A DNA stretch of 20,213 nucleotides, from positions 1 to 20,213 of the IMG/VR virus record IMGVR_UViG_3300045017_000268. The stretch is one strand, 5' to 3'. Shown piece after piece: positions 6,948-20,213 of the stretch. The number at the start of each line of letters is the position of its first letter. The stretch's first letter is position 1. Source of the stretch: a virus. A program made the translations under genes and the position numbers. Below the pieces are notes generated by a model, which made no database searches, was not told where the DNA came from, and was given only the letters and a program-made list of their open reading frames with translations.

Positions 6948-7826
6948 ATGCAGAATCTGACTACTCCATATAAAGACGAAGCAGCCAAAGGAGAGAACCG
7001 GCCTATTGAGCTGTATGACTTTTATTTAGGCACTCAAGACCACTGCGACGCAAATACCTTTTATTTCTGCACAGACAATAAAAGGTGCCAGTTCTGGAAT
7101 TTAGACGGAGTACTGCAGTATTACATTCCGCTTGGCATAAAGCGCTCGGCAATACCGGCATCGAACCAGCTTGAGATTGAGGCAGTGTCAGGGGAGTTTG
7201 ACAATGTGGACCGGGCCTGGAGCAACTGGCTTAATACCGTGGACCTAAGAGGCAGGCGGGTGGTGATCCGCAAGGTCTTTCTGGACCTGCTTACAGATCC
7301 TCTGCATGCCAAGGTAATGTTTGACGGCATTATTAATGCGGTAGCAGAGCTGACAGAATTAAGCGTCAAGATTGAATGTAAGTCAAAACTTAAATCCCTG
7401 GCTGTTGAGACAGGAAGGATGCAGCAGCTTTACTGCAATTATATTTTCGGAGACGAGTTTTGCCAGTTCAATGTGGCGGCAACCAGGATCACAGGGCAGC
7501 TGGTAGGTGCAGGTTCCACAACCGGATTCATTATTGATGCAAGCCGGACAGAGGCAGACGACTTTTGGAACGACGGAGTGATTCAGTTTAATTCAGGGGT
7601 TAATTCCGGATTAAAGCGCAAGGTGGTGGATTTTACCTTAGCGGAGCACAAGCTGATTCTGGATTATGCCCTGCCTCAGGCACCCAATCCCGGGGATCTT
7701 TATTCAGTTGAGAAGGGCTGCGACAAATCTTTTGATGTCTGTAAAAACAGGCACAACAATCAGGCGAATTTCGGCGGGTTTAAGCATATCCCACAGCTGA
7801 TTAATCCGATTAGCAAAGAAGAATGA
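6948..7826 (+). CDS. Tail hub protein with four-cysteine cluster site (lambda gpL / RcGTA hub type, DUF2163/BR0599)
   Basis: This 292-residue protein carries the N-terminal hub domain ('PIELYDFYLG', 'YYIPLGIKRSAIPASNQLEIEAVSG', 'GRRVVIRKVFLDL') and the C-terminal block of the BR0599/DUF2163 family ('CDKSFDVCKNRHNNQANFGGFKHIPQ'). Cysteines 163, 172, 258 and 265 have the paired arrangement that in lambda gpL and the RcGTA hub holds an iron-sulfur cluster; the cluster here is inferred from the family. The protein forms the trimeric base to which the tip protein attaches. It follows the distal tail gene and overlaps the next gene by four bases (ATGA at 7823-7826). Confidence 0.8.
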   Translation: MQNLTTPYKDEAAKGENRPIELYDFYLGTQDHCDANTFYFCTDNKRCQFWNLDGVLQYYIPLGIKRSAIPASNQLEIEAVSGEFDNVDRAWSNWLNTVDLRGRRVVIRKVFLDLLTDPLHAKVMFDGIINAVAELTELSVKIECKSKLKSLAVETGRMQQLYCNYIFGDEFCQFNVAATRITGQLVGAGSTTGFIIDASRTEADDFWNDGVIQFNSGVNSGLKRKVVDFTLAEHKLILDYALPQAPNPGDLYSVEKGCDKSFDVCKNRHNNQANFGGFKHIPQLINPISKEE

Positions 7827-10800
7827 AAAAACTCGATACAGAATTATTAAATAAGCTGGTAGGTGTTAAGTGGCTCCAAGACGGCCGGGACCTTAGCGGC
7901 ACAGACTGCGTAGGCCTGATGCAGCTTTATTTTAACTCAAGAGGCGTTGAAGGTATTGCGCCTAAGATCAGCGAGGTTGATCAGACTAAGCAGGATGAAA
8001 TAATTAAAAAAATCCTTGAGACAAATACCATTGTCAAAAAAGACGAGCTTGAGCCTGAGGATATCCTGGTCTTTAAGATTAACGATGAGCTGCACGTCGG
8101 GCTTTATTTAGGCTACGGCCGGATGCTGCATGCAAGAAAAAACGCTAAATCCAGGATCTCCCGACTTGATGCTAATTGGGAAAAATACTTTTTATTCGCC
8201 ATCCGTGAAAAAGACGGCAAGATCTACATCCCGCCTGCGGGCCCGCCAGCTGCCATTGCTGTTGCCTTGGTAATTGCCGATTACGCAGCTGCTTCATTTA
8301 TTGCTGGAGGTTTGATTGCATTATCACTTACCACTATAGGCTGTCTTATCGGCACAGCCATGATCGGCTATGCCATCGGCCTGGCAATCCAGACCAGGCA
8401 GCAGTCAAAATCAGGCGGCGCATCCGCATCCCCGCGTTACCGCTTCGGCGAGCTGCAGACAACCTCTACAAATCAGTATCCAGTGCCGGTATTGTACGGC
8501 GAGGCGCGCTTAGCCGGGAATATCGTTTATCAGAATCCGGTGATGGGAGGAGAGCAGATAGACTTGCTTATCGTACTCTGCCAGGGCGAAATCGAAAGCA
8601 TCTCTGATATCAGATTAAACGGCGAGCCCATCGGAAGTTTTCCCGGGTGTTCGTATCATGCCTTTTTAGGCACTCCGGCGCAGAATGTGCAAACCGATAC
8701 CGGTTTAGACTTAGACGGCATTCAGTACCGCAATACTGCTATGCTGCATGTGCATCTTGAGACTTCCGACAAACTAAAAGGCGGTCGTCCGAATATTACC
8801 TGTATCTGCAAGGGAAGGAAGGTTTCCACCTGGACCGGAGCAGATTGGACATCGCTTAAATATTATTCGGAGAATCCTGCAGCCTGTATCAGGGATTATT
8901 TGCTTATGAAACTCCAAATCGGTGGCTGCGGATACTTAACAGCTGACATCGATGACTTGTCTTTTGCCGAGGTTTATGACCGCTGCCAGGAATTAGTGTC
9001 TGACGGCCAGGGAGGGCAGGAGCCAAGATATACGGTTTCCTTCTGCATTGACCAGAAGCGCGCAGCTTCAGATAACTTAAGCGAGATGCTGGTGGGTTTT
9101 GCCGGGGCGCTCATAAGAAGCGGCTCAAAACTAAAGCTGATCATTGCCAAGCCTCAGGCAGCAGCAGCTTCCTTTGATGAGGATGATATCCGGGATTTAA
9201 GAATAATTCAAAAGGGGCTGGATCAGAAGATTAACCGCTTCGGCATTGAATACTTTGACCCGACCCAGGATGATGCCAGGATCCTTGCCTGGGGAGCAGA
9301 GGATAAGGTGGATCAGGATGAAAGAGGTTTAGTTGAGCAGACGCTGACCATTCCTTCAATCAACAGAAAAACGCAGGCCTCAAGATTAAGCAACCAGTAT
9401 TTCTATGAGTTAAAGCTTTGTCCGCTCTCGGTTGAGTTTACAACTTCCTTAAATGCCGTAGGCCAGGAGATAGGCGATGTGATTACACTTACGCATTCGC
9501 TCATGGGCTGGACGAATAAGCAGTTTATTATTCAGCGTATTGAGGAGGACGAAAAAGACGTCTATAAAATCACGGCGCAAGAATACAACGCCTCAATTTA
9601 CAACGACCGCTTTGGCGCCACCATTCAATCTTTTGATTACGGCACGCCGCCTAATCCGTATGCGCCGGTTTCGGAGGTGAGTAACTTACAGCTGGCTGAG
9701 AGCCTTTATTATCTGCATAAAGACGGCACAGTTGGCTCGGATATCCAGATTACTTTTAATGAACCCAGCGATGACTCAAAGATTTTTTTGAGCCACTATC
9801 AGATTGAGCTTAAAAAAGGAGCGGAGGAATATAAAGTTTCCGGTACTGCTACTGAACCGCACTTTACCTGTTTTGCTGTGGAGGATGAGCAGACCTACAA
9901 AGTAAAGGTGAGAACAGTTTCCATAAACGGCATTATTTCAGACGGCCTGGAATCAGGGGATCTTACTGTCCTGGGTAAGCTGCAGCCTCCATCAGATGTC
10001 GCAGGATTTGAGGTTTCGCAGGAAGGGAATTTTTTAAGATTCAGCTGGGATGCAATACCTGACGCCGATCTAGCCCGCTACGTGATCAAAAAAGGTTCTG
10101 AATGGTCTACCGGCCAGTTTATCGGTGAAAAAGTCGATACCACCGAGTTTGTCTATCCGGTAGGCGAAATAGGACAAGTTACTTTTATGATTAAGGCAGT
10201 GGATACTTCCGGCAACGAAAGCTCAACCCCTGGCATTGACTCTTTGGTGATTACCCCGCCTCCGGAGATGAATTTCATTAATGACTTTGACCTCTGGAGC
10301 CAGGAGCTAAGGTATAAGCTTTCTAATTTAGACTTGGTTTACACCAATGATTTTGACCTCGGCTACGTGCGGCCAGCCTTAAGCATAAAAACTGACTTTA
10401 GCTGGGAAGACCGAGAAGCTCAAGGCCTAACCTGGGAGCAGCAGGAGGCTGGAGGAGGACTTAATTTAAACGGTCCTACTAAGTTATCCGGCTTCTTTGA
10501 AATGATTGATCCGGTTGATCTCTTAACTGTCTTTGAGTTTAAGGTGATTGTGGATGCTGATTACCGCAATGTTTTAGGAGGTTCTTTAGAGGTGCAGATC
10601 AGTTATTCCTTAGACGGCATAAGCTACAGCGCTTTTGAGCTGATAGATGCCTTTACTACCTACACGGCAAGGTTTGTGAAGTTTAAGTTTATTCTCTCGA
10701 CAACAGATATAAATCATCACATTTACTTCTACGGCTGCCACCTTTTTATCAATGCTCCGGTGACCAGGGTATCGTGGTTTAGGGATGTATTAATCCCGGT

Positions 10801-10993
10801 GCAGGGTAAAACTATACTTTTTGGCTCTGGCTTTAATTATCCGCCCAGGGTAAGTGTGACAATAGTAAACGGAGTTATCGGCATGCCAATAGTGGCAAAT
10901 AAAACTACCACCCAGTGTGATATCCGGGTCTACGACCGTCTGGGAGCTGCCATAGGCACAGCTGAGGTGGATATCGATGTGAAAGGATACTAA
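7823..10993 (+). CDS. Fused tail tip protein: NlpC/P60 peptidase, gpI-like segment, gpJ-like tip attachment with FN3 domains
   Basis: One 1056-residue frame covers what is three genes (K, I, J) in lambda. Residues 1-130 are an NlpC/P60 peptidase: likely nucleophile Cys29 in GTDCVGL and catalytic His91 in ELHVGLYLGYG, with a further 'RMLHA' His103. It would open peptidoglycan during entry. Residues about 140-190 are hydrophobic with small residues ('AAIAVALVIADYAAASFIAGGLIALSL', 'IGTAMIGYAIGLAIQ'), as in gpI. From about 204 the gpJ-like hub begins ('SPRYRFGELQTTSTNQYPVPVLYGEARLAG'). Two FN3-like domains lie near 612-715 and 720-812 ('PPSDVAGFEV...LRFSWDAIPDADLARYVIKKG'). The last 240 residues are beta-rich and may contact fibres or receptor. 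ATGA overlap with the hub gene. Confidence 0.85.
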   Translation: MKKLDTELLNKLVGVKWLQDGRDLSGTDCVGLMQLYFNSRGVEGIAPKISEVDQTKQDEIIKKILETNTIVKKDELEPEDILVFKINDELHVGLYLGYGRMLHARKNAKSRISRLDANWEKYFLFAIREKDGKIYIPPAGPPAAIAVALVIADYAAASFIAGGLIALSLTTIGCLIGTAMIGYAIGLAIQTRQQSKSGGASASPRYRFGELQTTSTNQYPVPVLYGEARLAGNIVYQNPVMGGEQIDLLIVLCQGEIESISDIRLNGEPIGSFPGCSYHAFLGTPAQNVQTDTGLDLDGIQYRNTAMLHVHLETSDKLKGGRPNITCICKGRKVSTWTGADWTSLKYYSENPAACIRDYLLMKLQIGGCGYLTADIDDLSFAEVYDRCQELVSDGQGGQEPRYTVSFCIDQKRAASDNLSEMLVGFAGALIRSGSKLKLIIAKPQAAAASFDEDDIRDLRIIQKGLDQKINRFGIEYFDPTQDDARILAWGAEDKVDQDERGLVEQTLTIPSINRKTQASRLSNQYFYELKLCPLSVEFTTSLNAVGQEIGDVITLTHSLMGWTNKQFIIQRIEEDEKDVYKITAQEYNASIYNDRFGATIQSFDYGTPPNPYAPVSEVSNLQLAESLYYLHKDGTVGSDIQITFNEPSDDSKIFLSHYQIELKKGAEEYKVSGTATEPHFTCFAVEDEQTYKVKVRTVSINGIISDGLESGDLTVLGKLQPPSDVAGFEVSQEGNFLRFSWDAIPDADLARYVIKKGSEWSTGQFIGEKVDTTEFVYPVGEIGQVTFMIKAVDTSGNESSTPGIDSLVITPPPEMNFINDFDLWSQELRYKLSNLDLVYTNDFDLGYVRPALSIKTDFSWEDREAQGLTWEQQEAGGGLNLNGPTKLSGFFEMIDPVDLLTVFEFKVIVDADYRNVLGGSLEVQISYSLDGISYSAFELIDAFTTYTARFVKFKFILSTTDINHHIYFYGCHLFINAPVTRVSWFRDVLIPVQGKTILFGSGFNYPPRVSVTIVNGVIGMPIVANKTTTQCDIRVYDRLGAAIGTAEVDIDVKGY

Positions 10994-11135: not shown

Positions 11136-12176
11136 ATGGAAAGACATGTTTTTGATCCTAACCAGCCGACAGGCTCAATGAGCTTAGAAAACCTGCGTAA
11201 CTGCCTGCGCGCAATCTTCCAAGGAGATTTATTTCCTTTAAGGCCGCGGGCCTCAATGGTGCTCGATGACTTAGAATACCCAACAGATGCTTTAGCGCAG
11301 GCTAAATGGAGCGGGACAGGAATTACGGTTACACATTCAACTACAAAGCAAGAAGGCAACTATGCCCTGCAGTGCGTGATTGATGCCACACCTAACCGGC
11401 AGGTAACTACTATTAAGTTTTTGAACTTATCCGGATTTAAGCAGATTACCCTCTGGGAGAGATGCTCTGGATCATCCCAGGCGTTTAGGTTTTTCTTAGA
11501 GGATAATCTCGGGCATGTGAGTTATTGGAATATAACCAGCCACGCAACATCCGGGACTTGGAAGAAAGACACCCTTACCCTGGCTACACCCGACGGCAAC
11601 AACGGAACACCTGCAGTATTAGCCAATATCACTGACTTTGGGTTTTATCAGCTTCCGGCAAATCAGACCTTTATCTTTGATACTATTTCTGCGGTCTGCG
11701 GGATGAATGTGGCAGTGAGTTCTGCGCTGGTTGCAGGATTTTATCAGAATATCTATATCGGCTCAACCAGGCTTACCTTTGCCGGAGGAGCATCTGCGCT
11801 GATGACCGCCCCCGGTGCAAATCCCAGGATTGACTTATTGACTATTAACGCAGCCGGAACCTTGGAATGGACGCAAGGGGCAGAAGCAACAAATCCGGCA
11901 GAGCCTGTTTTCCCTACGGGAAAGTTTCCGGTATGCCTTGTGTATTGCAAGCCGACCATGACTAAGGTGGTTGATTATGAATTTAAGGACGCAAATCCTA
12001 ATGAGGGATATATCTACAAGGACGTGCGGCCATTGTATCTTTTAGGGATGAGTTCGTTCTTGGCATTAACCGACTGCCCGGCAAGTTACGCTGGCCAGGC
12101 GGGCAAGTCTGTCAGAGTAAAGGCTGATGAGACAGGCTTAGAGTTTGCATTCCCGAATGCAACTTACGCGGAGTAG
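11136..12176 (+). CDS. Tail fibre or receptor-binding-type protein
   Basis: This 346-residue protein starts with 'FDPNQPTGSMSLENLRNCLRAIFQGDLFPLRPRAS', likely the virion-attachment part. Residues about 40-190 are beta-rich ('VLDDLEYPTDALAQAKWSGTGITVTHSTTKQEGNYALQC' through 'FIFDTISAV') with the look of a carbohydrate-binding jelly roll. The region around 205-290 ('IYIGSTRLTFAGGASALMTAPGANPRIDLLTINAAGTLEW') resembles receptor-facing phage structural modules, and the end ('SFLALTDCPASYAGQAGKSVRVKADETGLEF') is a motif seen widely in phage tail fibres. The combination supports a fibre or adsorption role, although ligand and oligomer state cannot be read. It lies directly ahead of the cysteine-rich protein. 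Confidence 0.7.
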   Translation: MERHVFDPNQPTGSMSLENLRNCLRAIFQGDLFPLRPRASMVLDDLEYPTDALAQAKWSGTGITVTHSTTKQEGNYALQCVIDATPNRQVTTIKFLNLSGFKQITLWERCSGSSQAFRFFLEDNLGHVSYWNITSHATSGTWKKDTLTLATPDGNNGTPAVLANITDFGFYQLPANQTFIFDTISAVCGMNVAVSSALVAGFYQNIYIGSTRLTFAGGASALMTAPGANPRIDLLTINAAGTLEWTQGAEATNPAEPVFPTGKFPVCLVYCKPTMTKVVDYEFKDANPNEGYIYKDVRPLYLLGMSSFLALTDCPASYAGQAGKSVRVKADETGLEFAFPNATYAE

Positions 12177-12181
12177 AAAAT

Positions 12182-12904
12182 ATGCCGGAGCATAGATTGC
12201 CGCCGAAACAATGCGCCTCAAATATTCCCAGCTGGACAGATCTGGCTTTGACTGCAGATTCAGTTAAGGTGCGTAACGACCATATAGAGGAGCTGCGCAC
12301 AAAGGTTAACCTGGAGTTTACTAGGAGGTATTTGTCCACGGCAAGTTTTACGGATCCGACGCTTACGGCCAATGCGACTAAGGTTAGAAATGACCACATC
12401 CAGGAGCTAAGAGCCGAGCTGCAGAATATAAAGACAGGCAGAGGCGAATCCGGTTACTGCGTGCAGGACGGTTCAGGCTGCATGGATTTTACTGACCCAA
12501 CATTAACCGCAAATTCTACAAAAGCGCGTAATGACCATGTTTCGGAATTAAGGGGCAAGCTGCAGGCTTTAATGACCGGCTGTATCTGCGAGGCAGAGCA
12601 GTGCCAGTATTGCGCAGACTGCGGCTACTATTATCAGACCTGTTCGCATCAGGGAGTGGCCTGCGACAACCATAAATACAATGAATGCGGCCATTCGATG
12701 GTAGACCACTGGATCTGCGCAAGCTATAACCTGCCCGGAGGCACCGCGCATCCGTATAAAGCAGCCTCAGGGGATCCATTATCCATAACCAACTGGGACG
12801 GTTTTGTGCCTTGGAGTCCGCAGTGTAATTACGCGCCTCCCGGGATTAACTGGCAGAGCGCTCATTCAGACTGGAATTGCAAATGCAATCCTTTTACCTG
12901 GTAG
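12182..12904 (+). CDS. Cysteine-rich repeat protein next to the radical SAM genes (candidate modification substrate)
   Basis: This 240-residue protein has three repeats of the form (S/D)(F/W)TD.(T/A)LTA(N/D).(T/V)KxRNDH(I/V).ELR, near residues 17-43, 55-82 and 102-129. Such 'FTDP.L....T.vR..H..ELR' repeats occur in other phage and secreted bacterial proteins. The last 107 residues are different: 12 cysteines (134, 136, 141, 144, 147, 154, 161, 169, 179, 215, 233, 235) among many aromatic residues, ending NCKCNPFTW. In total there are 15 cysteines. No signal peptide or membrane segment is seen. The C-terminus could be a zinc-binding or disulfide-rich knob, or the target of the three radical SAM enzymes that follow. 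The function is not known. Confidence 0.8.
   Translation: MPEHRLPPKQCASNIPSWTDLALTADSVKVRNDHIEELRTKVNLEFTRRYLSTASFTDPTLTANATKVRNDHIQELRAELQNIKTGRGESGYCVQDGSGCMDFTDPTLTANSTKARNDHVSELRGKLQALMTGCICEAEQCQYCADCGYYYQTCSHQGVACDNHKYNECGHSMVDHWICASYNLPGGTAHPYKAASGDPLSITNWDGFVPWSPQCNYAPPGINWQSAHSDWNCKCNPFTW
12230..12568 (+). repeat. Three protein-level repeats (FTDPTLTA...RNDH..ELR)
   Basis: Bases 12230-12310, 12344-12427 and 12485-12568 encode three related segments of about 28 residues. Repeats 2 and 3 are the closest (FTDPTLTAN shared exactly); repeat 1 is more diverged. At the DNA level they differ at many third positions, so they are not a recent duplication. Confidence 0.85.
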
Positions 12905-12910
12905 AGAGCT

Positions 12911-13291
12911 ATGTTTAAAGATAAAGAATTCTTAATAAATATCACCCTAAAGATTGCCAAGCATGCGCAGGCTGATCCTGTGACAGAGTTGATTTACTGG
13001 GTGAGGCTTAATTTAGACAATGCCAAGACAGGGGATTTTACCAGTAGTCATTTTGAGGACGCAGATTTATTCAGCGGTGCCTTAAAGAGCGCAGTGCAGG
13101 AATTAGGCATAGAGGACGAGGAAGGCAGGATCTCAAACTTCGCTTTCTTTATTGCCGGAGGGGATAAAAACAAGCTTTACTTGGCCGGAGTGATTCCTTT
13201 GACCTTGGAGCATAAGGAAATACTTAAGACCAAGCTTAAGATGGAAACCACTCCGGTTGATGAGGGGCTGTTTTTATTAAATTGGCTATGA
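12911..13291 (+). CDS. Unknown 126-residue protein, first gene of the radical SAM cassette
   Basis: I do not recognise this protein. It has an N-terminal helix ('KEFLINITLKIAKHAQADPVTELIYWVRLNL'), an acidic centre ('ELGIEDEEGRISNFAFFIAGGD') and a C-terminal 'LYLAGVIPLTLEHKEILKTKLKM...PVDEGLFLLNWL'. It has no cysteine, no signal peptide and no membrane segment, and it does not look like the PqqD-type RiPP recognition element. Its stop overlaps the start of the first radical SAM gene (ATGA at 13288-13291), so the products are probably made together. It may be a binding partner or chaperone that brings the substrate to the enzymes, or a substrate itself; both are guesses from position. Confidence 0.7.
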   Translation: MFKDKEFLINITLKIAKHAQADPVTELIYWVRLNLDNAKTGDFTSSHFEDADLFSGALKSAVQELGIEDEEGRISNFAFFIAGGDKNKLYLAGVIPLTLEHKEILKTKLKMETTPVDEGLFLLNWL

Positions 13292-14502
13292 GCGTATTTA
13301 TCTTAGAAGAAACTAAAGCTTGCATCGGCCTGCCTGATGTTTGCCGGACAATTATCAAACGGTATAAAGAGGAAGGCAGGTTTGAGATCGCTTCAATTAC
13401 CGCGGATAAGCAGGAATATACCTCTGTCTATTTACTTATGACGCAGGACTGCAACCTGGCATGTCCTTACTGTTATCAGCCTCGGGAATTCAGGCAGAAA
13501 GGCGCGGAGATCTCCAAGCAGGTTATTGATGATACGGTGAATTTTGTCCTTAAGCATTTTGACGAGGCAAGGGTTAAATTTTCGATCTTCGGAGGCGAGC
13601 CGTTTTTGAACTTCCCGATGATTAAATATTTAGCAGAGACTTACCCGATGTTTCATTATGTGGTAACCACCAACGGCCTTTGTTTTATCGAGGATAAAAG
13701 TATCAGGGACTGGATCGCAAAGCACAAATACCATTTTAAGGTCAGCGTCAGCATTGCATCCTTAAAAGCAAAATTCGGTAAAGATTATTTAGAGGCAGCC
13801 AAACCCGCCTTGGATATCGTGCAGCATAACGGCGGGGACGTGCATTACGTGATTGATGATCCGGATCAGGCCGGGGTGTTTGAGGAGATTAAATATTTAT
13901 TCGAGTATCCGGTGCCGGTAGTGCGCATCTCAGCAGCCAGGCATTGGGACATGATTAAGGAGAAGAATGAGGCATATGAGGCTTTATTCAAAAGGCTGGC
14001 AGACTACATTTATTTTACCGGAGAGCCGAAGTTTGGAAGCAGCCAGTGGGATATTGCCTTTAAGAACAACCTTTACCGCAAGCTTAAAGGATTACCTTTA
14101 AAACATGTCCCGCCGACTTTCTGCGGATGCGGGTATTTGTATTTGGCAGTAAATCATAAGGGAGAGATTTACCCCTGCGATTTCTTTGCCAACTTTCCGG
14201 AGTTTAAGATCGGGGATATCTACTCAGGCTTTAATGAAACCGCCTTGTTTTTTAAGAAGATGGGGGATTGGCTGGATGAATTGTATGAGGACTGCCGGGA
14301 GTGTTCGGTCTGCGAGGGTAGTGATATCCGGCTTTGCCCGCGGGCAATGTGTTTGGCGGAAAATTATATCGTAAACGGCAATCCGCTAAAGCCGGCAGCG
14401 AACCACTGCTGGGCTAACAGGGTTGAGTACGCCAATTTTGAATACATTGCCAAAAAGGCAATTGCTCTTGGCATTGATGAGCTTTACTGCAGGGGAAAAT
14501 GA
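13288..14502 (+). CDS. Radical SAM/SPASM protein 1
   Basis: This 404-residue enzyme has the CX3CX2C motif for the SAM-binding [4Fe-4S] cluster at Cys55, Cys59 and Cys62 (CNLACPYC), the GGEP motif at 102-105 and a 'VVTTNG' strand near 125-130. The C-terminal SPASM domain has cysteines 279, 281, 297 (EIYPCDFF), 336, 339, 342, 350, 355 and 374, enough for two auxiliary clusters. Such enzymes make radical-based changes to peptide or protein substrates, such as thioether or carbon-carbon bonds, epimerisation or oxidation; which one cannot be read here. The first 45 residues are an extension too short for a full RiPP recognition domain. ATG 13288 is preferred to TTG 13282 because it gives the ATGA overlap that recurs in this cassette. 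Confidence 0.88.
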   Translation: MSVFILEETKACIGLPDVCRTIIKRYKEEGRFEIASITADKQEYTSVYLLMTQDCNLACPYCYQPREFRQKGAEISKQVIDDTVNFVLKHFDEARVKFSIFGGEPFLNFPMIKYLAETYPMFHYVVTTNGLCFIEDKSIRDWIAKHKYHFKVSVSIASLKAKFGKDYLEAAKPALDIVQHNGGDVHYVIDDPDQAGVFEEIKYLFEYPVPVVRISAARHWDMIKEKNEAYEALFKRLADYIYFTGEPKFGSSQWDIAFKNNLYRKLKGLPLKHVPPTFCGCGYLYLAVNHKGEIYPCDFFANFPEFKIGDIYSGFNETALFFKKMGDWLDELYEDCRECSVCEGSDIRLCPRAMCLAENYIVNGNPLKPAANHCWANRVEYANFEYIAKKAIALGIDELYCRGK

Positions 14503-15575
14503 AAATACCAGTTTATAAAACAGTTTATCTCTACTTAACGCATGCCTGCGATTCAGGGTGCAGTTTCTGCTACCGCAGAGGCCTCTTTACCCGAAACAAT
14601 CCCGAAAGCTTGGGGCCTCGGTTTATGAGCGAAGACATGGCTTTTAGGATTCTAGAGTTTGTATTCTCGGAACTGGAGCTTGATCCTAAATTCGCAATCT
14701 ACTTTTGGGGAGGCGAGCCGTTACTAAATTTTGCCGTGATTAGAGCAGTAGTTGAAAAACTCCCTCAATTCTTATACCACACCAACACTAACGGCGCGCC
14801 CATAAATCAGGGCATGTATGATTGGTTAAGCCGAAACAAGAATTTAAGCCTGACCTGGTCCTTGGGCAATGCCTATGAAAAATACGGCTCACTCAAGGCA
14901 AAAGTCTATGCCGAGCCCTGGGCCCTCAGGCTGGTAAAAGAAAACCCGCAGCATAACGTCAACTTTATGGTGACAAGATATGACCGGTTATTAGAGGATT
15001 TTGATTTTCTTATTAATAATGTCACCCGCAATATCACCCTAGACCTGGCTACGCGCTTTGAGCATAAGGAAGAGGATCTGGAAAGGTTTGCGGAGGAATA
15101 TTTTAACCTGCTGCAAAAATACAGAGATGACAAAGAGCTTTATCAGGCAATGAATCCGGCCATACACTCAAACCTTTATTTTAAGGAGTTCGGATTAAAG
15201 TCGCAGGTGGAAGATTTTCATTACTGCCGGTCCGGATTAGAGCGGTTATTCATAGACACAGCAGGCGGTATCTGGCAGTGTGACAACATGTATATCTGCC
15301 AGCATAACAAATTAGGCGATATCGAGCGGGGCATTGACTATTCCAAGCTGGAGCTTGTCTGGGAAATCGATGTCAACCGCGAGAAGTATCTCGGGCAGTA
15401 CTGCCGGGATTGCGAGCTTTACAAGCTTTGCCCGCGCAATAAATGTCTTGGTCTAAACCTAGAATGGATGCAAGACATGTTTAAGCCGGAGCCGTCATTC
15501 TGCAAGATGTGCAAGGTCTTATTCAAAATAACCAAGCGTTACATTGAGCTTGAGAAGGAGGCGAAATGCAGCTAA
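14499..15575 (+). CDS. Radical SAM/SPASM protein 2
   Basis: This 358-residue enzyme has CX3CX2C at Cys17, Cys21 and Cys24 (CDSGCSFC), GGEP at 71-74 and 'TNTNG' near 95-99. SPASM-region cysteines are 243, 261 (GIWQCDN), 267, 302, 305, 311, 316, 335 and 338. It differs strongly from protein 1 outside the motifs, for example in the 'LSLTWSLGNAYEKYGSLK' segment, so the three enzymes are old paralogues or were gathered separately, not recent copies. It probably modifies the same or a linked substrate as its neighbours. It starts within the stop of gene 1 (ATGA) and overlaps gene 3 by ten bases. Confidence 0.88.
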   Translation: MKIPVYKTVYLYLTHACDSGCSFCYRRGLFTRNNPESLGPRFMSEDMAFRILEFVFSELELDPKFAIYFWGGEPLLNFAVIRAVVEKLPQFLYHTNTNGAPINQGMYDWLSRNKNLSLTWSLGNAYEKYGSLKAKVYAEPWALRLVKENPQHNVNFMVTRYDRLLEDFDFLINNVTRNITLDLATRFEHKEEDLERFAEEYFNLLQKYRDDKELYQAMNPAIHSNLYFKEFGLKSQVEDFHYCRSGLERLFIDTAGGIWQCDNMYICQHNKLGDIERGIDYSKLELVWEIDVNREKYLGQYCRDCELYKLCPRNKCLGLNLEWMQDMFKPEPSFCKMCKVLFKITKRYIELEKEAKCS

Positions 15576-16717
15576 AGGAAAATGAGATTAAAAGCATCGA
15601 TTTATTCATTACCGAGCAGTGCAACATGGATTGCAGCTATTGTTTTCATGCCAAGCGCGATGAGGTTTTAAGCCTCGAGCAGGGCAGAAAGATTTTAGAG
15701 CGCATGAAGCAGATCAGCCCGGAGGCTCTGCAGATTACTTTCTTCGGAGGCGAGCCTTTACTTTATCCGCAAACAGTCTTAGAGCTGGCCAAGTATGCCC
15801 GGCAGCTTTGGCCGGATAAAGACAGGGTGCATACTTCAACTTTTAGTGTTTCCACCAACGGCACCTACTTCGATGAGGAAATGTTTAAGCAGTATAAGGA
15901 GCTGGGGTTTTCCATGCAGGTCAGCTGCGACGGAGACGAAATCACTACAGCAGAATACCGCAAGGGCGACTGGAAACTAGTCACCGAGAACATTAAGAAG
16001 ATGCTGGTAATCTTTCCGGATCTAAGCGTGCGCCTGACTTATACTCCAAAGACCGCAGGCAGGCTTTCCATAAATGTGCAGTTCTTGCATCAGGAGCTGG
16101 GGGTTAAAAGAATAACTCATCATGCGGTAATGGAAGACGACTGGACTCCTGAGGCGGTAGAAAAGTATGTCTATCAGCTGAACCAGCTCTATCACTACAG
16201 ACGCTACTGCTTAAGGCAGAGTATTCCTTTGGAAATCGCTTTTATTGATAAGCCCCTAAAGACAATTAATGACGAGGTGCCTCCGGATTCAAACTACTGC
16301 GAGGCAGGCAAGTCTTATTTAGCGGTCCTGGCCAGCGGCGATGTTTATCCCTGCCACCGGGCAGCCAGCGTCAGGGTATTCAAACTGGGAAATATCTTTG
16401 AAGAGCGGCCTTTTATCCGGGGAATGTTCTTAAGCATTAACAAAGAATACACCGGCTGCTGGAAGAATTGCTTTGCAGCAGTTACCTGCCACAGCTGCGT
16501 GATCACGCATTATAAGGTCAACGGCGAGTTAACACAGCCGGTTGCCAAATACTGCCAGCTTTGCAAAGCAGAATACAATCAGGCCTTAAAATTCCTGCCG
16601 GTTGAGTTAAGCGACCGCAGGGAAAGGATGATTTACAAGATCGCCCAGGTTTTAGTAGACGTAGCCAGACAGAACGAAGAAGTTTTAGCCGAATTGCGAA
16701 AGGAGCGTGCGTCATGA
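15566..16717 (+). CDS. Radical SAM/SPASM protein 3
   Basis: This 383-residue enzyme has CX3CX2C at Cys19, Cys23 and Cys26 (CNMDCSYC), GGEP at 61-64, 'SVSTNG' near 94-99 and SCDGD at 120-124, the last like the S-DG motif of anaerobic sulfatase-maturating and sactipeptide-type enzymes. SPASM-region cysteines are 245, 263 (DVYPCHR), 298, 302, 308, 311, 330 and 333. Of the three it looks most like the classical subtilosin/anSME-type group. It has its own strong site (GAAGGAGG) inside the end of gene 2, so it may be made at a higher level than coupling alone would give. Its stop overlaps the next start (ATGA at 16714-16717). Confidence 0.88.
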   Translation: MQLKENEIKSIDLFITEQCNMDCSYCFHAKRDEVLSLEQGRKILERMKQISPEALQITFFGGEPLLYPQTVLELAKYARQLWPDKDRVHTSTFSVSTNGTYFDEEMFKQYKELGFSMQVSCDGDEITTAEYRKGDWKLVTENIKKMLVIFPDLSVRLTYTPKTAGRLSINVQFLHQELGVKRITHHAVMEDDWTPEAVEKYVYQLNQLYHYRRYCLRQSIPLEIAFIDKPLKTINDEVPPDSNYCEAGKSYLAVLASGDVYPCHRAASVRVFKLGNIFEERPFIRGMFLSINKEYTGCWKNCFAAVTCHSCVITHYKVNGELTQPVAKYCQLCKAEYNQALKFLPVELSDRRERMIYKIAQVLVDVARQNEEVLAELRKERAS

Positions 16718-17007
16718 CAGGAGACAGTATTGGTTTTGAGGAAATAGTAGTTGATTTGAGCGTGGCGAGTTTAAATCCGGCAATTTATAACCCGCCTGCA
16801 GGAGATCCGGCTGCCAAGGCTTTTATCACTGCAGAAGGCGGGCCTATGAGGTATCGGCTTGACGGAGTGGATCCCACAGACACTACCGGGCATTTATTAA
16901 TGGACTCGGATTTCCTGGAGCTTAAAAGCATTTACCTGATTAATAAATTCAGGGCAATTAAGACAACGGTTAACCCGGGAAAGTTATCCGTGACTTACGA
17001 AAGTTAA
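16714..17007 (+). CDS. Small beta-rich phage protein (probable virion accessory protein)
   Basis: This 97-residue protein has the pattern 'AFITAEGGPMRYRLDGVDPTDTTGHLL', then 'LELKSIYLINKFRAIKT', then 'GKLSVTYES', which I recall from small proteins in tail regions of other phages, where the role is unproven. It is predicted to be an all-beta fold without cysteine, signal peptide or membrane segment. It starts inside the stop of the third radical SAM gene, so it belongs to the same translationally coupled string and may be a virion component whose assembly goes with the modified protein. A RiPP-type peptide substrate is less likely given this fold. Confidence 0.65.
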   Translation: MTGDSIGFEEIVVDLSVASLNPAIYNPPAGDPAAKAFITAEGGPMRYRLDGVDPTDTTGHLLMDSDFLELKSIYLINKFRAIKTTVNPGKLSVTYES

Positions 17008-17018
17008 GGAGGCGGCTT

Positions 17019-17564
17019 ATGCATATCCAGCAGTCAAGAACATACAAGCTTGAGAATGTTATCAATCAGGTCTTTAACGCAGCCCTGCTAAAGACAGGCC
17101 AGGCCTATTCGTATTACCCGGGCGATGACGGCCAGTATCAAAAGGGAGCCTCACCGCAAGGCAACAGATTTATCGATAACGGAGACGGAACCGTAACCGA
17201 TAATTTAACCGGCCTGATGTGGATTAAGGATCCTACGCAGATTCCCGGGTTTGGCTCGACTATGTATTGGTATGATGCGCTTAACGCCTGCGAGAGCCTT
17301 GATTATGCCGGTCACGACGACTGGCGTATGCCGAATATAAACGAGCTTCTATCTATAGTAAATCACTCAAGGTTTGATCCGGCATTTGACCCAATGTTTT
17401 TTACTCCCTTTCCCGATAACTGGACGCCTTATTGGTCGTCTACTACATGCGCGCCTTGGACGGACGGCGTATGGTGTCTGTACCCCTATGACGGTTATAA
17501 AACAGTCTGGAGCAAGCCTTATGATATGTGCTATGTCAGGCCTGTCAGAGGCGGACAGTCTTAA
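17019..17564 (+). CDS. DUF1566/Lcl_C domain protein (C-type-lectin-like), possible receptor-binding protein
   Basis: This 181-residue protein has a 48-residue N-terminal part (probably virion attachment) and then the Lcl_C/DUF1566 domain at about 50-178: 'FIDNGDGTVTDNLTGLMW', 'WYDALNACESLDYAGHDDWRMPNINEL', 'YWSSTT' and the end 'YVRPVRGG', all signature parts of the family. The fold is related to C-type lectins and to formylglycine-generating-enzyme-like domains, and phages use it to display ligand-binding surfaces. Some relatives are diversified by retroelements, but no reverse transcriptase or template repeat is visible here. A strong TAAGGAGG site precedes ATG 17019. No signal peptide is present, which fits a virion protein. 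Confidence 0.8.
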   Translation: MHIQQSRTYKLENVINQVFNAALLKTGQAYSYYPGDDGQYQKGASPQGNRFIDNGDGTVTDNLTGLMWIKDPTQIPGFGSTMYWYDALNACESLDYAGHDDWRMPNINELLSIVNHSRFDPAFDPMFFTPFPDNWTPYWSSTTCAPWTDGVWCLYPYDGYKTVWSKPYDMCYVRPVRGGQS

Positions 17565-18367: not shown

Positions 18368-18697
18368 ATGGCAGAAGCGGAAAAATTCAGCTTGATTAAG
18401 TTCATAGCCAGCTTCGGGCAGTTTTTACCTTGGGTAAAGACTGCCCGATACGCCCTGGGATTTTTAGGAATAGGTTTTATCGGCTTGACTATTTATCGGG
18501 CCTACTTTATGCCTACGACCAAGCAGGTCACTCAGATTGTAGCGCAGCCCGGATCCCAGGTTACTGTAGTTGAAGAAAAGAAAAAAGAAACAAAGAAACT
18601 TTTTAGCCTGCATCCTTTTGTTGAGGGTTACGGCTTTGCCGAATCTGACGGCAGGAATGGATTCGGAGCAAAGGCAGGCATAAGAATGGAGTTTTGA
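18368..18697 (+). CDS. Small membrane protein of unknown function
   Basis: This 109-residue protein has a hydrophobic segment at about residues 27-47 ('YALGFLGIGFIGLTIYRAYFM'), a Gln/Val-rich linker with a Lys/Glu-rich stretch (VVEEKKKETKK) and a glycine-rich beta end ('GYGFAESDGRNGFGAKAGIRMEF'). I do not recognise it. The TM plus soluble tail layout would fit a membrane-anchored accessory of host lysis. It starts one base after the previous stop and its own stop overlaps the next start (TGATG). Confidence 0.6.
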   Translation: MAEAEKFSLIKFIASFGQFLPWVKTARYALGFLGIGFIGLTIYRAYFMPTTKQVTQIVAQPGSQVTVVEEKKKETKKLFSLHPFVEGYGFAESDGRNGFGAKAGIRMEF

Positions 18698-19361: not shown

Positions 19362-20213
19362 ATGCTAAGAAAGAATAAGATTTTATCTTTTTTATTGTGC
19401 TTTAGCCTTTTATTTGAGCAGACTGGTTTTGCTCAAGTCGCAGGCACTTTGGATATCTCAGGTCACATCGCTGCATTTCGCAATCAGCTTATTCAGGATA
19501 AATTCCGACCCTTGCATTTGCGTTCTCTTGGCTATGACAATAGTCAAAATAACTTCCGGCTGTTGCTTGATAAAGGCGACTTAAAAAATCCCAAGAAACC
19601 AGATTTAGAGACTACTACCAAGACTCTTCTAAATTACTTCTTTGTCGGAATAACCCTCCCTAACGATACCTTCTGGGTAAATCTTAGGCCTGATTCAGAG
19701 AATAATATTATTGACCCGGATCTGGCTACAACCGACGTCGGAAAGATCCTTCTGGAAGCAGACTTGCAACTAAAGAAAGATACCGCTAAGTTCACCTCTC
19801 CAGAAACTCCTGAAGGTAAGGAATACTGGGAAAAACTGTATCAGAAAGCAGGAGAGCTCTTAGGTTACGAGAACGTTACCATCCCTACCCTGACCCGTCC
19901 TTGGATAGTCCCGGGCGAAATCATCATCCGTGAAACCAAAGACAATGCCTATATTTACAAAGCGACTTTAAAGGTAATGTTAGAGCAGGATTACCTGAAA
20001 GGTTCAGCTACCTATAATTTTGATGACCCAAGGCTAAAAACTCTTAACGAATACTCATCTCAACTAATAAGAGACCTCATTATTCCTAAGCTAACCAAAG
20101 AAGTAAATACTTCTCAAAGATACGCTCCTTTAAGGCAGGTTTATTATTCTCTTATTCTTGCCCAGTGGTTTAAATCCAGATTCTATGGCAAAGGGGGGCT
20201 ATATTCCTGGCTT
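19362..20213 (+). CDS. Secreted Omnitrophota-type repeat-family protein (partial, open at window end)
   Basis: From ATG 19362 the frame is open for 284 codons to the window edge. It begins with a clear signal peptide (basic MLRKNK, then 'ILSFLLCFSLLFEQTGFAQ'), so it is exported. The mature part has 'FRPLHLRSLGYDNSQNNFRLLLDKGD', 'FFVGITLPNDTFWVNLRPD', 'TDVGKILLEADLQLKKDT', 'PTLTRPWIVPGEIII' and 'YKATLKVMLEQDYLKG', a block I recall from a large family restricted, as far as I know, to Candidatus Omnitrophota, often in very long proteins; its function is unknown. Codon choice is more A/T-rich than in the phage genes. No good ribosome-binding site precedes the start. It probably marks the host side of the prophage boundary. 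Confidence 0.75.
   Translation, partial: MLRKNKILSFLLCFSLLFEQTGFAQVAGTLDISGHIAAFRNQLIQDKFRPLHLRSLGYDNSQNNFRLLLDKGDLKNPKKPDLETTTKTLLNYFFVGITLPNDTFWVNLRPDSENNIIDPDLATTDVGKILLEADLQLKKDTAKFTSPETPEGKEYWEKLYQKAGELLGYENVTIPTLTRPWIVPGEIIIRETKDNAYIYKATLKVMLEQDYLKGSATYNFDDPRLKTLNEYSSQLIRDLIIPKLTKEVNTSQRYAPLRQVYYSLILAQWFKSRFYGKGGLYSWL

Follow-up and report, generated by a model that had tools for sequence, protein, structure and literature searches.

Why would a phage encode three different radical SAM enzymes in a row among its tail genes, and on which protein would they act? This question is raised by the virus record IMGVR_UViG_3300045017_000268, whose 20,213 bases form the window that we analysed; it is a siphophage late module with major capsid protein-like, tape measure, hub and gpJ-like tail-tip genes, all on the plus strand according to the list of open reading frames (ORFs) and to PHROG and NCBIfam profiles. 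An earlier note, made from the letters alone, had singled out the block at 12911-17007, which includes three radical SAM/SPASM enzymes (termed here rS1, rS2 and rS3), and had proposed that they modify a surface protein of the virion. The block is real, but its most important gene lies just upstream, at 12182-12904, and encodes a cysteine-rich protein, CYS240. Our proposal, which we consider probable, is that these genes form an exchangeable tail-tip (receptor-binding) module of Omnitrophota phages, where CYS240 would be the substrate of the three enzymes and would receive thioether-type cross-links. The observations that bear on it are the conservation of the cassette, the linkage of its genes, the joint exchange of enzymes and cysteine-rich protein, and the mutual exclusion between the cassette and a long tip of the tail protein J.

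The strongest evidence that the cysteine-rich protein is the substrate comes from the chromosome of Ca. Velamenicoccus archaeovorus LiM (NZ_CP019384.1), which holds two related prophages, A with the CYS240 cassette and B with another one. The CYS240 protein of prophage A has 245 aa (gene at complement 1861632-1862366), and the CT191 gene of prophage B, described next, lies at complement 1910646-1911221. Between t190 and b97, prophage B encodes a cysteine-rich protein termed CT191 (191 aa, 17 Cys, C-terminus HIVCCECECTCTCTCTCTCTCTCTCTCQEQCCSECDCGD, with a C-terminal ending that begins CCECECTCTCTCTCTCTC), one PapB-like radical SAM enzyme (NF047865, 2.5e-61) and one B12-binding radical SAM enzyme (PF02310 and PF04055). 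The neighbouring proteins of A and B are similar, namely, J 76%, z 65%, t 80%, b97 74%, Lcl 77% and g109 82% identical, whereas their radical SAM enzymes share at most 28% identity. CYS240 and CT191, in turn, have the repeat domain alone in common (hhalign probability 92%, E 5e-7), and BLAST aligns just 38 aa at 39% identity. The converse case is locus L047, with J, z and t like those of the CT191 phages but with the CYS240 cassette. A Cys-rich ribosomal partner stands beside the radical SAM genes in all CYS240-type loci that continue downstream, and likewise in the CT191 type. Since enzymes and cysteine-rich protein co-vary while the other tail proteins stay constant, the cysteine-rich protein is taken to be the substrate, and its pairing with the enzymes appears well supported by these sequence comparisons. 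Co-variation thus allows the surface protein that was predicted to be modified to be named, the likely substrate being CYS240.

The CT191-type arrangement was also found in ten IMG/VR contigs, with a nearly invariant cysteine tail, CCECE(CT)nCQEQCC, in which two CT units are missing in three of the ten. In L047 (11108-15092), the CYS240 cassette seems to be partly degenerate, with a frameshift that splits rS1 and with neither b97 nor Lcl.

Cassette-less relatives, located using g109 as a marker, inform on what the module replaces. Seven such phages have neither g346/t190 nor the cysteine-rich protein, the radical SAM enzymes, b97 and Lcl, and their J proteins measure 1359-1529 aa, against 1056 or ~1205-1236 aa with the cassette. 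The J of one of them, L073, is 80% identical to that of the window over residues 1-801 and unrelated thereafter; the C-terminus of this J shares 68% identity with that of L070, despite the different J body of the latter. None of the loci compared had both the cassette and the long J tip. These alternative J C-termini suggest that the module replaces a receptor-binding tip, and what may be expected of a tail-tip module was found, namely, a place in the tail operon by gpJ or baseplate genes (J in the window, baseplate genes in L043) and a swap with alternative tips in close relatives. The last ~255 aa of J are specific to cassette-bearing phages, and b97 and Lcl accompany both types of cassette and occur in none of the cassette-less phages. 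Three distant phages bearing g109 (L088, L089 and L090) show an apparent diversity-generating retroelement (DGR) upstream of this gene, with a reverse transcriptase-like ORF starting MKRHGNLYEKI, a target ending GCRFCAEPV and a template-like ORF.

Some 20 viral contigs share the order CYS240-rS1-rS2-rS3, which also occurs in Omnitrophota genomes and in a single phage with a contractile tail. Whenever a contig runs beyond CYS240, rS1 comes next, followed by rS2 and rS3 up to the contig end, and this order is kept even where upstream tail genes are 26-39% identical (L012, L029, L042, L015, L041, L017 and L040) and where identity in J falls to ~27%. In the contractile-tail phage, a 92-kb contig (L043/L053) with PF04965, PF04865 and weak BppU_N baseplate genes, CYS240 is 47% and the enzymes 39-52% identical to those of the window, u126 is missing, and homologues of g346/t190, b97 and Lcl were undetected in a contig that stops shortly past rS3. 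This phage and the conserved order point to a minimal unit of CYS240 plus three enzymes, mobile between tail types. Among 84,980 species genomes scanned, the block was recovered from the complete LiM chromosome, from two Omnitrophota metagenome-assembled genomes and from a contig assigned, probably in error, to a Ruminococcaceae bin. Of the 285 Omnitrophota genomes surveyed, a CYS240 protein is encoded by three, and five others match the repeat domain only. These hosts agree with the earlier guess of an Omnitrophota phage, and the suggested check, whether the block always sits in tail modules, came out affirmative for each contig continuing past CYS240. The counter-case then envisaged, in which the enzymes belong mainly to host RiPP (ribosomally synthesised and post-translationally modified peptide) loci, was not seen: the single CYS240 gene of the Velamenicoccus chromosome lies inside a prophage, and the host-side radical SAM clusters inspected in the LiM and G004 genomes are unrelated and have no Cys-rich partner.

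By their sequences, rS1, rS2 and rS3 are members of the radical SAM superfamily with a SPASM domain. First, each has the features previously ascribed to it, namely, a CX3CX2C motif (beginning at residue 57, 17 and 19, respectively), GGE(P), and the predicted eight or more C-terminal cysteines, 9-10 lying past residue 200. Second, Pfam SPASM was detected in rS1 and rS3 (PF13186 with 24.6 bits in rS3) and the NCBIfam SPASM profile TIGR04085 scored 35.8 bits in rS1 and 26.7 in rS2, just short of its cut-off of 27; in rS2, Pfam Radical_SAM gave 23.8 bits, under the 29.5-bit cut-off. Third, the motifs are invariant across 10-11 homologues per enzyme, together with 7-8 C-terminal cysteines each (alignments A2-A4), and dN/dS (the ratio of nonsynonymous to synonymous substitution rates) is 0.04-0.10, so these are not chance ORFs. 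All three match PHROG 1802, 'radical SAM domain-containing protein', and their top NCBIfam profile is the PapB ranthipeptide maturase NF047865 (112, 85 and 170 bits for rS1, rS2 and rS3, and 208 for the enzyme of prophage B), followed by nif11, SCIFF, CXXX-repeat, QhpD and CcpM maturases. Because the curated NF047865 cut-off of 340 bits is not reached, we regard them as relatives of PapB and not as members. The nearest solved structure to rS3 is CteB (PDB 5WGG, E 9.5e-26).

Their proposed substrate, CYS240, consists of three helical repeats, TDPTLTAxxTKxRNDHIxELR, followed by a cysteine-rich C-terminus (GCICEAEQCQYCADCG...NCKCNPFTW). Its invariant cysteines include those of CICE.EQCQYC.DCG and of the terminal NCKCNP, and dN/dS is 0.035-0.042 for the protein and 0-0.03 for its C-terminal part in three pairs, which indicates strong purifying selection. 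No homologue was found in INPHARED phages, and a FlgM match (0.0045, under the gathering score) was taken as chance. The same repeat, TDP..T.IR..HI.ELR, is present in secreted Omnitrophota proteins (L095-L099), several with 30-59 Cys, whose genes often adjoin pseudopilin-like genes. Since the domain is common to these secreted proteins, its capture by a phage is possible, and the repeat domain of CYS240 may be a host surface domain acquired in this way.

The genes of the window are listed in Table 1, together with the second cassette and with the partner proteins of other phages that are taken up below. As previously described, three complete enzyme ORFs follow each other between a tail fibre region and a lectin-like protein, with ATGA overlaps at rS1/rS2 and rS3/b97 and a 10-base overlap at rS2/rS3. 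The true start of rS1 is likely the ATG at 13288, which would give the MSVF N-terminus of several homologues and make the u126/rS1 junction ATGA as well. From g346 to Lcl, genes overlap or are spaced by 5-15 bases, and promoter-like sites show no excess (5 found against 9.3 expected from shuffled sequence). The block belongs to the late tail operon, as had been proposed and in keeping with these overlaps and with the lack of promoter excess, but it is exchangeable cargo, missing from close relatives. Upstream of CYS240, g346 is 72-98% identical within one group of cassette phages, its homologue being undetectable in the other, where t190/t174 takes its place; u126 is dispensable, as judged from L043/L053. 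At the end of the window, positions 19362-20213 encode the first part of a secreted Omnitrophota-like protein. L070, though distant in other respects, has a copy with 93.6% identity 3' of g109; this gene may be host DNA flanking a prophage, or a shared accessory gene.

Table 1. Genes of the window, the second cassette, and proteins encoded near radical SAM (rSAM) genes of other phages.
Feature	Location	Strand	Evidence or description
J, gpJ-type tail-tip protein	7823..10993	+	phrog_31 central tail fiber J, 2.9e-75
g346, tail protein linking J and Cys-rich protein	11136..12176	+	weak tail PHROG matches
CYS240, proposed substrate and tail-tip component	12182..12904	+	15 homologues, 13 invariant Cys
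u126, small alpha/beta protein	12911..13291	+	AlphaFold2 (AF2) pLDDT 74.7
rS1, radical SAM/SPASM enzyme	13282..14502	+	PF04055 5.6e-9; NF047865 PapB 2.5e-32; alignment A3
rS2, radical SAM/SPASM enzyme	14499..15575	+	NF047865 5.2e-24; PF04055 5.8e-5; alignment A4
rS3, most conserved radical SAM/SPASM enzyme	15566..16717	+	PF04055 1.2e-16; NF047865 5.7e-50; alignment A2
b97, small protein	16714..17007	+	alignment A5; locus tally
Lcl, Lcl_C-domain lectin-like protein	17019..17564	+	PF07603 5.6e-29; locus tally
g109, conserved marker 3' of the variable tip module	18368..18697	+	alignment A6, 86% mean column identity
Second cassette type, CT191 + PapB-like rSAM + B12-rSAM	L052 7140-11803 (NZ_CP019384.1 1907140-1911803)		same tail locus, sister prophage
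Cys-rich protein	L122		adjoining rSAM
Two Cys-rich proteins	L123		35 and 31 Cys, adjoining rSAM
Repeat-domain protein	L124/L127		Cys-rich N-terminus, after baseplate genes
Cys-rich protein	L125/L126		364 aa, 81 Cys
(FCPCNCN)n protein	L128/L138
Cys-rich protein	L130		adjoining rSAM
Small Cys-rich protein	L131/L134		68 aa with CDCNCDCNC
22-Cys protein	L151		gut record labelled 'Bacteriophage sp.'; looks like a genuine phage
Campylobacter phage CP220, gp140 and rSAM gp136	L146 4164-5768 and 7974-9143		gp140 with 534 aa, 35 Cys; (CTCDCNY)n heptad repeat
Salmonella phage SPN3US, two small Cys-rich ORFs	L147 3070-3877		21 and 20 Cys, one apparently unannotated; upstream of two rSAM genes
Achromobacter phage JWF gp028	L157 3631-5082		tail fibre, NCNCDCNCNC directly before Hint/intein-like domain; two genes upstream of rSAM
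Thermus phage Cumys, (HxD)n protein	L156 4931-7221		343 aa, mostly His-x-Asp; by rSAM and DUF483 gene, baseplate module

What we infer, namely, the type of bond, the location of the CYS240 module in the virion and its role in adsorption, can be set out as follows. Late in infection, CYS240 and its enzymes would be co-translated from the tail operon, as their gene overlaps suggest. In the anaerobic cytoplasm of the host, each enzyme would cleave S-adenosylmethionine at its CX3CX2C cluster, and an Fe-S cluster of the SPASM region would hold a substrate cysteine, the sulfur of which would then be bonded to carbon in a residue close by, as expected from the enzyme family. Thioether chemistry is proposed by analogy with CteB, which makes a Cys-Thr bond, and QhpD, which makes Cys-Asp/Glu bonds in a protein subunit (reviewed in PMC8326336). 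The three enzymes may correspond to three classes of site in the irregular core of CYS240, and for the regular (CT)n core of CT191 one SPASM enzyme plus the methylase-like B12-binding enzyme might suffice; CYS240 would then be processed site-specifically and CT191 iteratively. The product would be a cross-linked, reduction-proof C-terminal domain borne on helical repeats, mounted at the tip via J and g346/t190, beside Lcl. Such a knot, stable without disulfides, could bind or grip the host surface.

Some of our results weigh against this proposal. Every family score falls under its curated equivalog cut-off, so that neither the bond type nor the acceptor residues can be firmly predicted. No RiPP recognition element (RRE) was found in rS1-3, whose CX3CX2C motifs begin too close to the N-terminus to leave room for one. 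The AF2 model of CYS240 (mean pLDDT 41.6, helices in the repeats only) is uninformative. Lastly, the secreted Cys-rich repeat proteins of Omnitrophota have no radical SAM neighbour in the short stretches examined, and therefore cysteine richness alone is no sign of modification by these enzymes. As a separate RRE, u126 was considered and rejected: its AF2 model has no fold match at E<=0.001, and the gene is missing in L043.

The alternative that survives best retains CYS240 as the substrate and changes the chemistry to C-C cyclophane formation, epimerisation, or assembly of a metallocofactor on CXC/CX2C. SPASM enzymes are chemically diverse, the profile matches include the cyclophane-type YhhB and other maturases, and CICEAEQCQYCADCG is similar to a metal-binding motif; however, the best matches, both by profile and in the PDB, are thioether formers, and the residue that the two proposed substrates share is cysteine. 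We consider such chemistry rather unlikely. It is improbable that the enzymes act instead on another tail protein (J, g346/t190, b97 or Lcl), CYS240 being merely a disulfide- or metal-stabilised spike. The restriction of Lcl and b97 to cassette phages would fit this explanation, as would the Omnitrophota surface proteins with the same repeat and no adjoining radical SAM gene; yet those proteins retain 74-80% identity from prophage A to prophage B, in contrast to a wholly different enzyme set, and the cysteine-rich protein is the only one that changes with the enzymes, and in L043 the enzymes stand beside CYS240 with none of g346/t190, b97 and Lcl detected before the contig stops.

We give still less credence to a phage-borne RiPP cargo, in which CYS240 and CT191 would give rise to a diffusible peptide, antimicrobial or signalling, that serves lysogenic conversion. 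RiPPs are the usual products of PapB/SCIFF/CcpM-type maturases, and the (CT)n tail at the end of CT191 is core-like. Nevertheless, neither the window block nor the LiM cassettes encode a maturation peptidase or an exporter, the block has no immunity gene, the N-terminal repeat domain takes up 130-150 aa, the genes overlap within a tail operon where promoter-like sites are not in excess, and the module, exclusive with the long J tip, was seen in tail modules only. Finally, that these are metabolic or accessory genes of benefit to an anaerobic host, a role suggested earlier for the radical SAM genes of the Campylobacter phages CP220 and CPt10 (Timms et al., 2010; PMC2853527), is hardly credible given the strict linkage and co-exchange with a Cys-rich tail protein, the 35-Cys heptad-repeat protein ~2 kb from a tail-region radical SAM gene in CP220 itself, and the lack in the window of a substrate enzyme such as a sulfatase.

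The cassette resembles several known systems in part. It shares with PapB/SCIFF (CteB, ScfB) a radical SAM core with SPASM (best matches NF047865, TIGR03974 and PDB 5WGG) and a Cys-rich ribosomal partner encoded nearby, and the Cys-Thr bond of CteB (PMC8326336) is compatible with a (CT)n substrate. It differs in that its enzymes score far under the equivalog cut-offs and have no RRE, in that the partner is a 190-265-aa tail-operon protein and not a short leader-core peptide, and in having three enzymes per substrate with no peptidase or transporter; thus, of the canonical RiPP hallmarks, the Cys-rich precursor is present, unlike the RRE and the peptidase/exporter. QhpD, of the same radical SAM/SPASM family (TIGR03906 is among the top matches), likewise introduces thioethers into a protein subunit and not into a peptide natural product (PMC8326336). 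It is, however, a single maturase whose unrelated substrate is a bacterial periplasmic enzyme subunit. DGR tail tips and exchangeable receptor-binding modules also have a variable tip at the same place of the tail operon, but our cassette varies by module swap and post-translational enzymes and not by mutagenic retrotranscription. The His-Xaa-Ser system (HxsBC) is a non-phage system in which a repeat-containing protein is accompanied by paired radical SAM enzymes; the (HxD)n tail-region protein of Thermus phage Cumys, beside its radical SAM gene, recalls it with a different repeat. In mycobacteriophage virion glycosylation and in ADP-ribosylation by T4 Alt, proteins of the phage or of its host are likewise modified by enzymes that the phage encodes, but without radical chemistry or a dedicated, exchangeable substrate-enzyme cassette.

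Unrelated phages with radical SAM genes, gathered by an rS3 profile scan and by searches of isolate phages, provide further pairings (Table 1). Cys-rich ORFs make up 10/115 of the ORFs within 1.5 kb of a phage radical SAM gene against 5/292 of other ORFs (Fisher p 0.002), a count that includes duplicates and leaves the CP220 ORF and one SPN3US ORF just beyond the limit; stretches of T4, phiKZ and lambda gave 0/192. In CP220, gp140 lies in the tail region, ~2.2 kb upstream of the radical SAM gene gp136, and the 21-bp repeat encoding its heptads has been reported (Timms et al., 2010; PMC2853527). The pairing is not universal, since no Cys-rich partner was found by the radical SAM genes of L135, L139-L142, L148 and L155. 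A shared N-terminal domain for all these partners was rejected, the repeat hidden Markov model scoring no higher than on reversed decoys, and among the matches listed in a CxCxCxCxCxCxC scan of viral contigs the motif was in frame in 3/80 loci, all simple repeats. Four of the six gut records inspected (L149, L150, L152 and L153; MT835472, MT835702, MT836452 and MT836133), labelled 'Bacteriophage sp.' from human faeces, resemble bacterial SCIFF-maturase loci, are probably mislabelled and were excluded. Whether radical SAM-matured, cross-linked cysteine knots constitute a general class of phage tail tips, with cassettes that originated or were acquired several times and are exchanged in the manner of receptor-binding modules, seems to us evenly balanced; this reading spans siphophages, myophages and jumbo phages, namely, those of Omnitrophota, the CP220 and SPN3US groups, Clostridia myophages and gut phages. 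The earlier note knew of no such phage system: phage radical SAM genes as such were already known, CP220 having 11 (PMC2853527), while their pairing with Cys-rich tail proteins appears undescribed, no account of radical SAM-matured phage tail proteins being present in the literature searched, which excluded most subscription papers and preprints.

Both cassettes are present in the chromosome of Ca. Velamenicoccus archaeovorus, for which a public metaproteome is available (PXD025008, cited in PMC12583861), and the laboratory phages Cumys, SPN3US and CP220 carry related arrangements, Cumys being a culturable case. If our proposal is true, phages would cross-link their own tail tips, through carbon-sulfur or other radical-made bonds, using dedicated enzymes. 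PHROG 1802, catalogued merely as radical SAM, would gain a function, and phages would offer thioether-forming enzymes able to modify whole proteins in the absence of RREs. This would also explain the excess of radical SAM genes in phages such as CP220, which in 2010 were read as genes of host metabolism.

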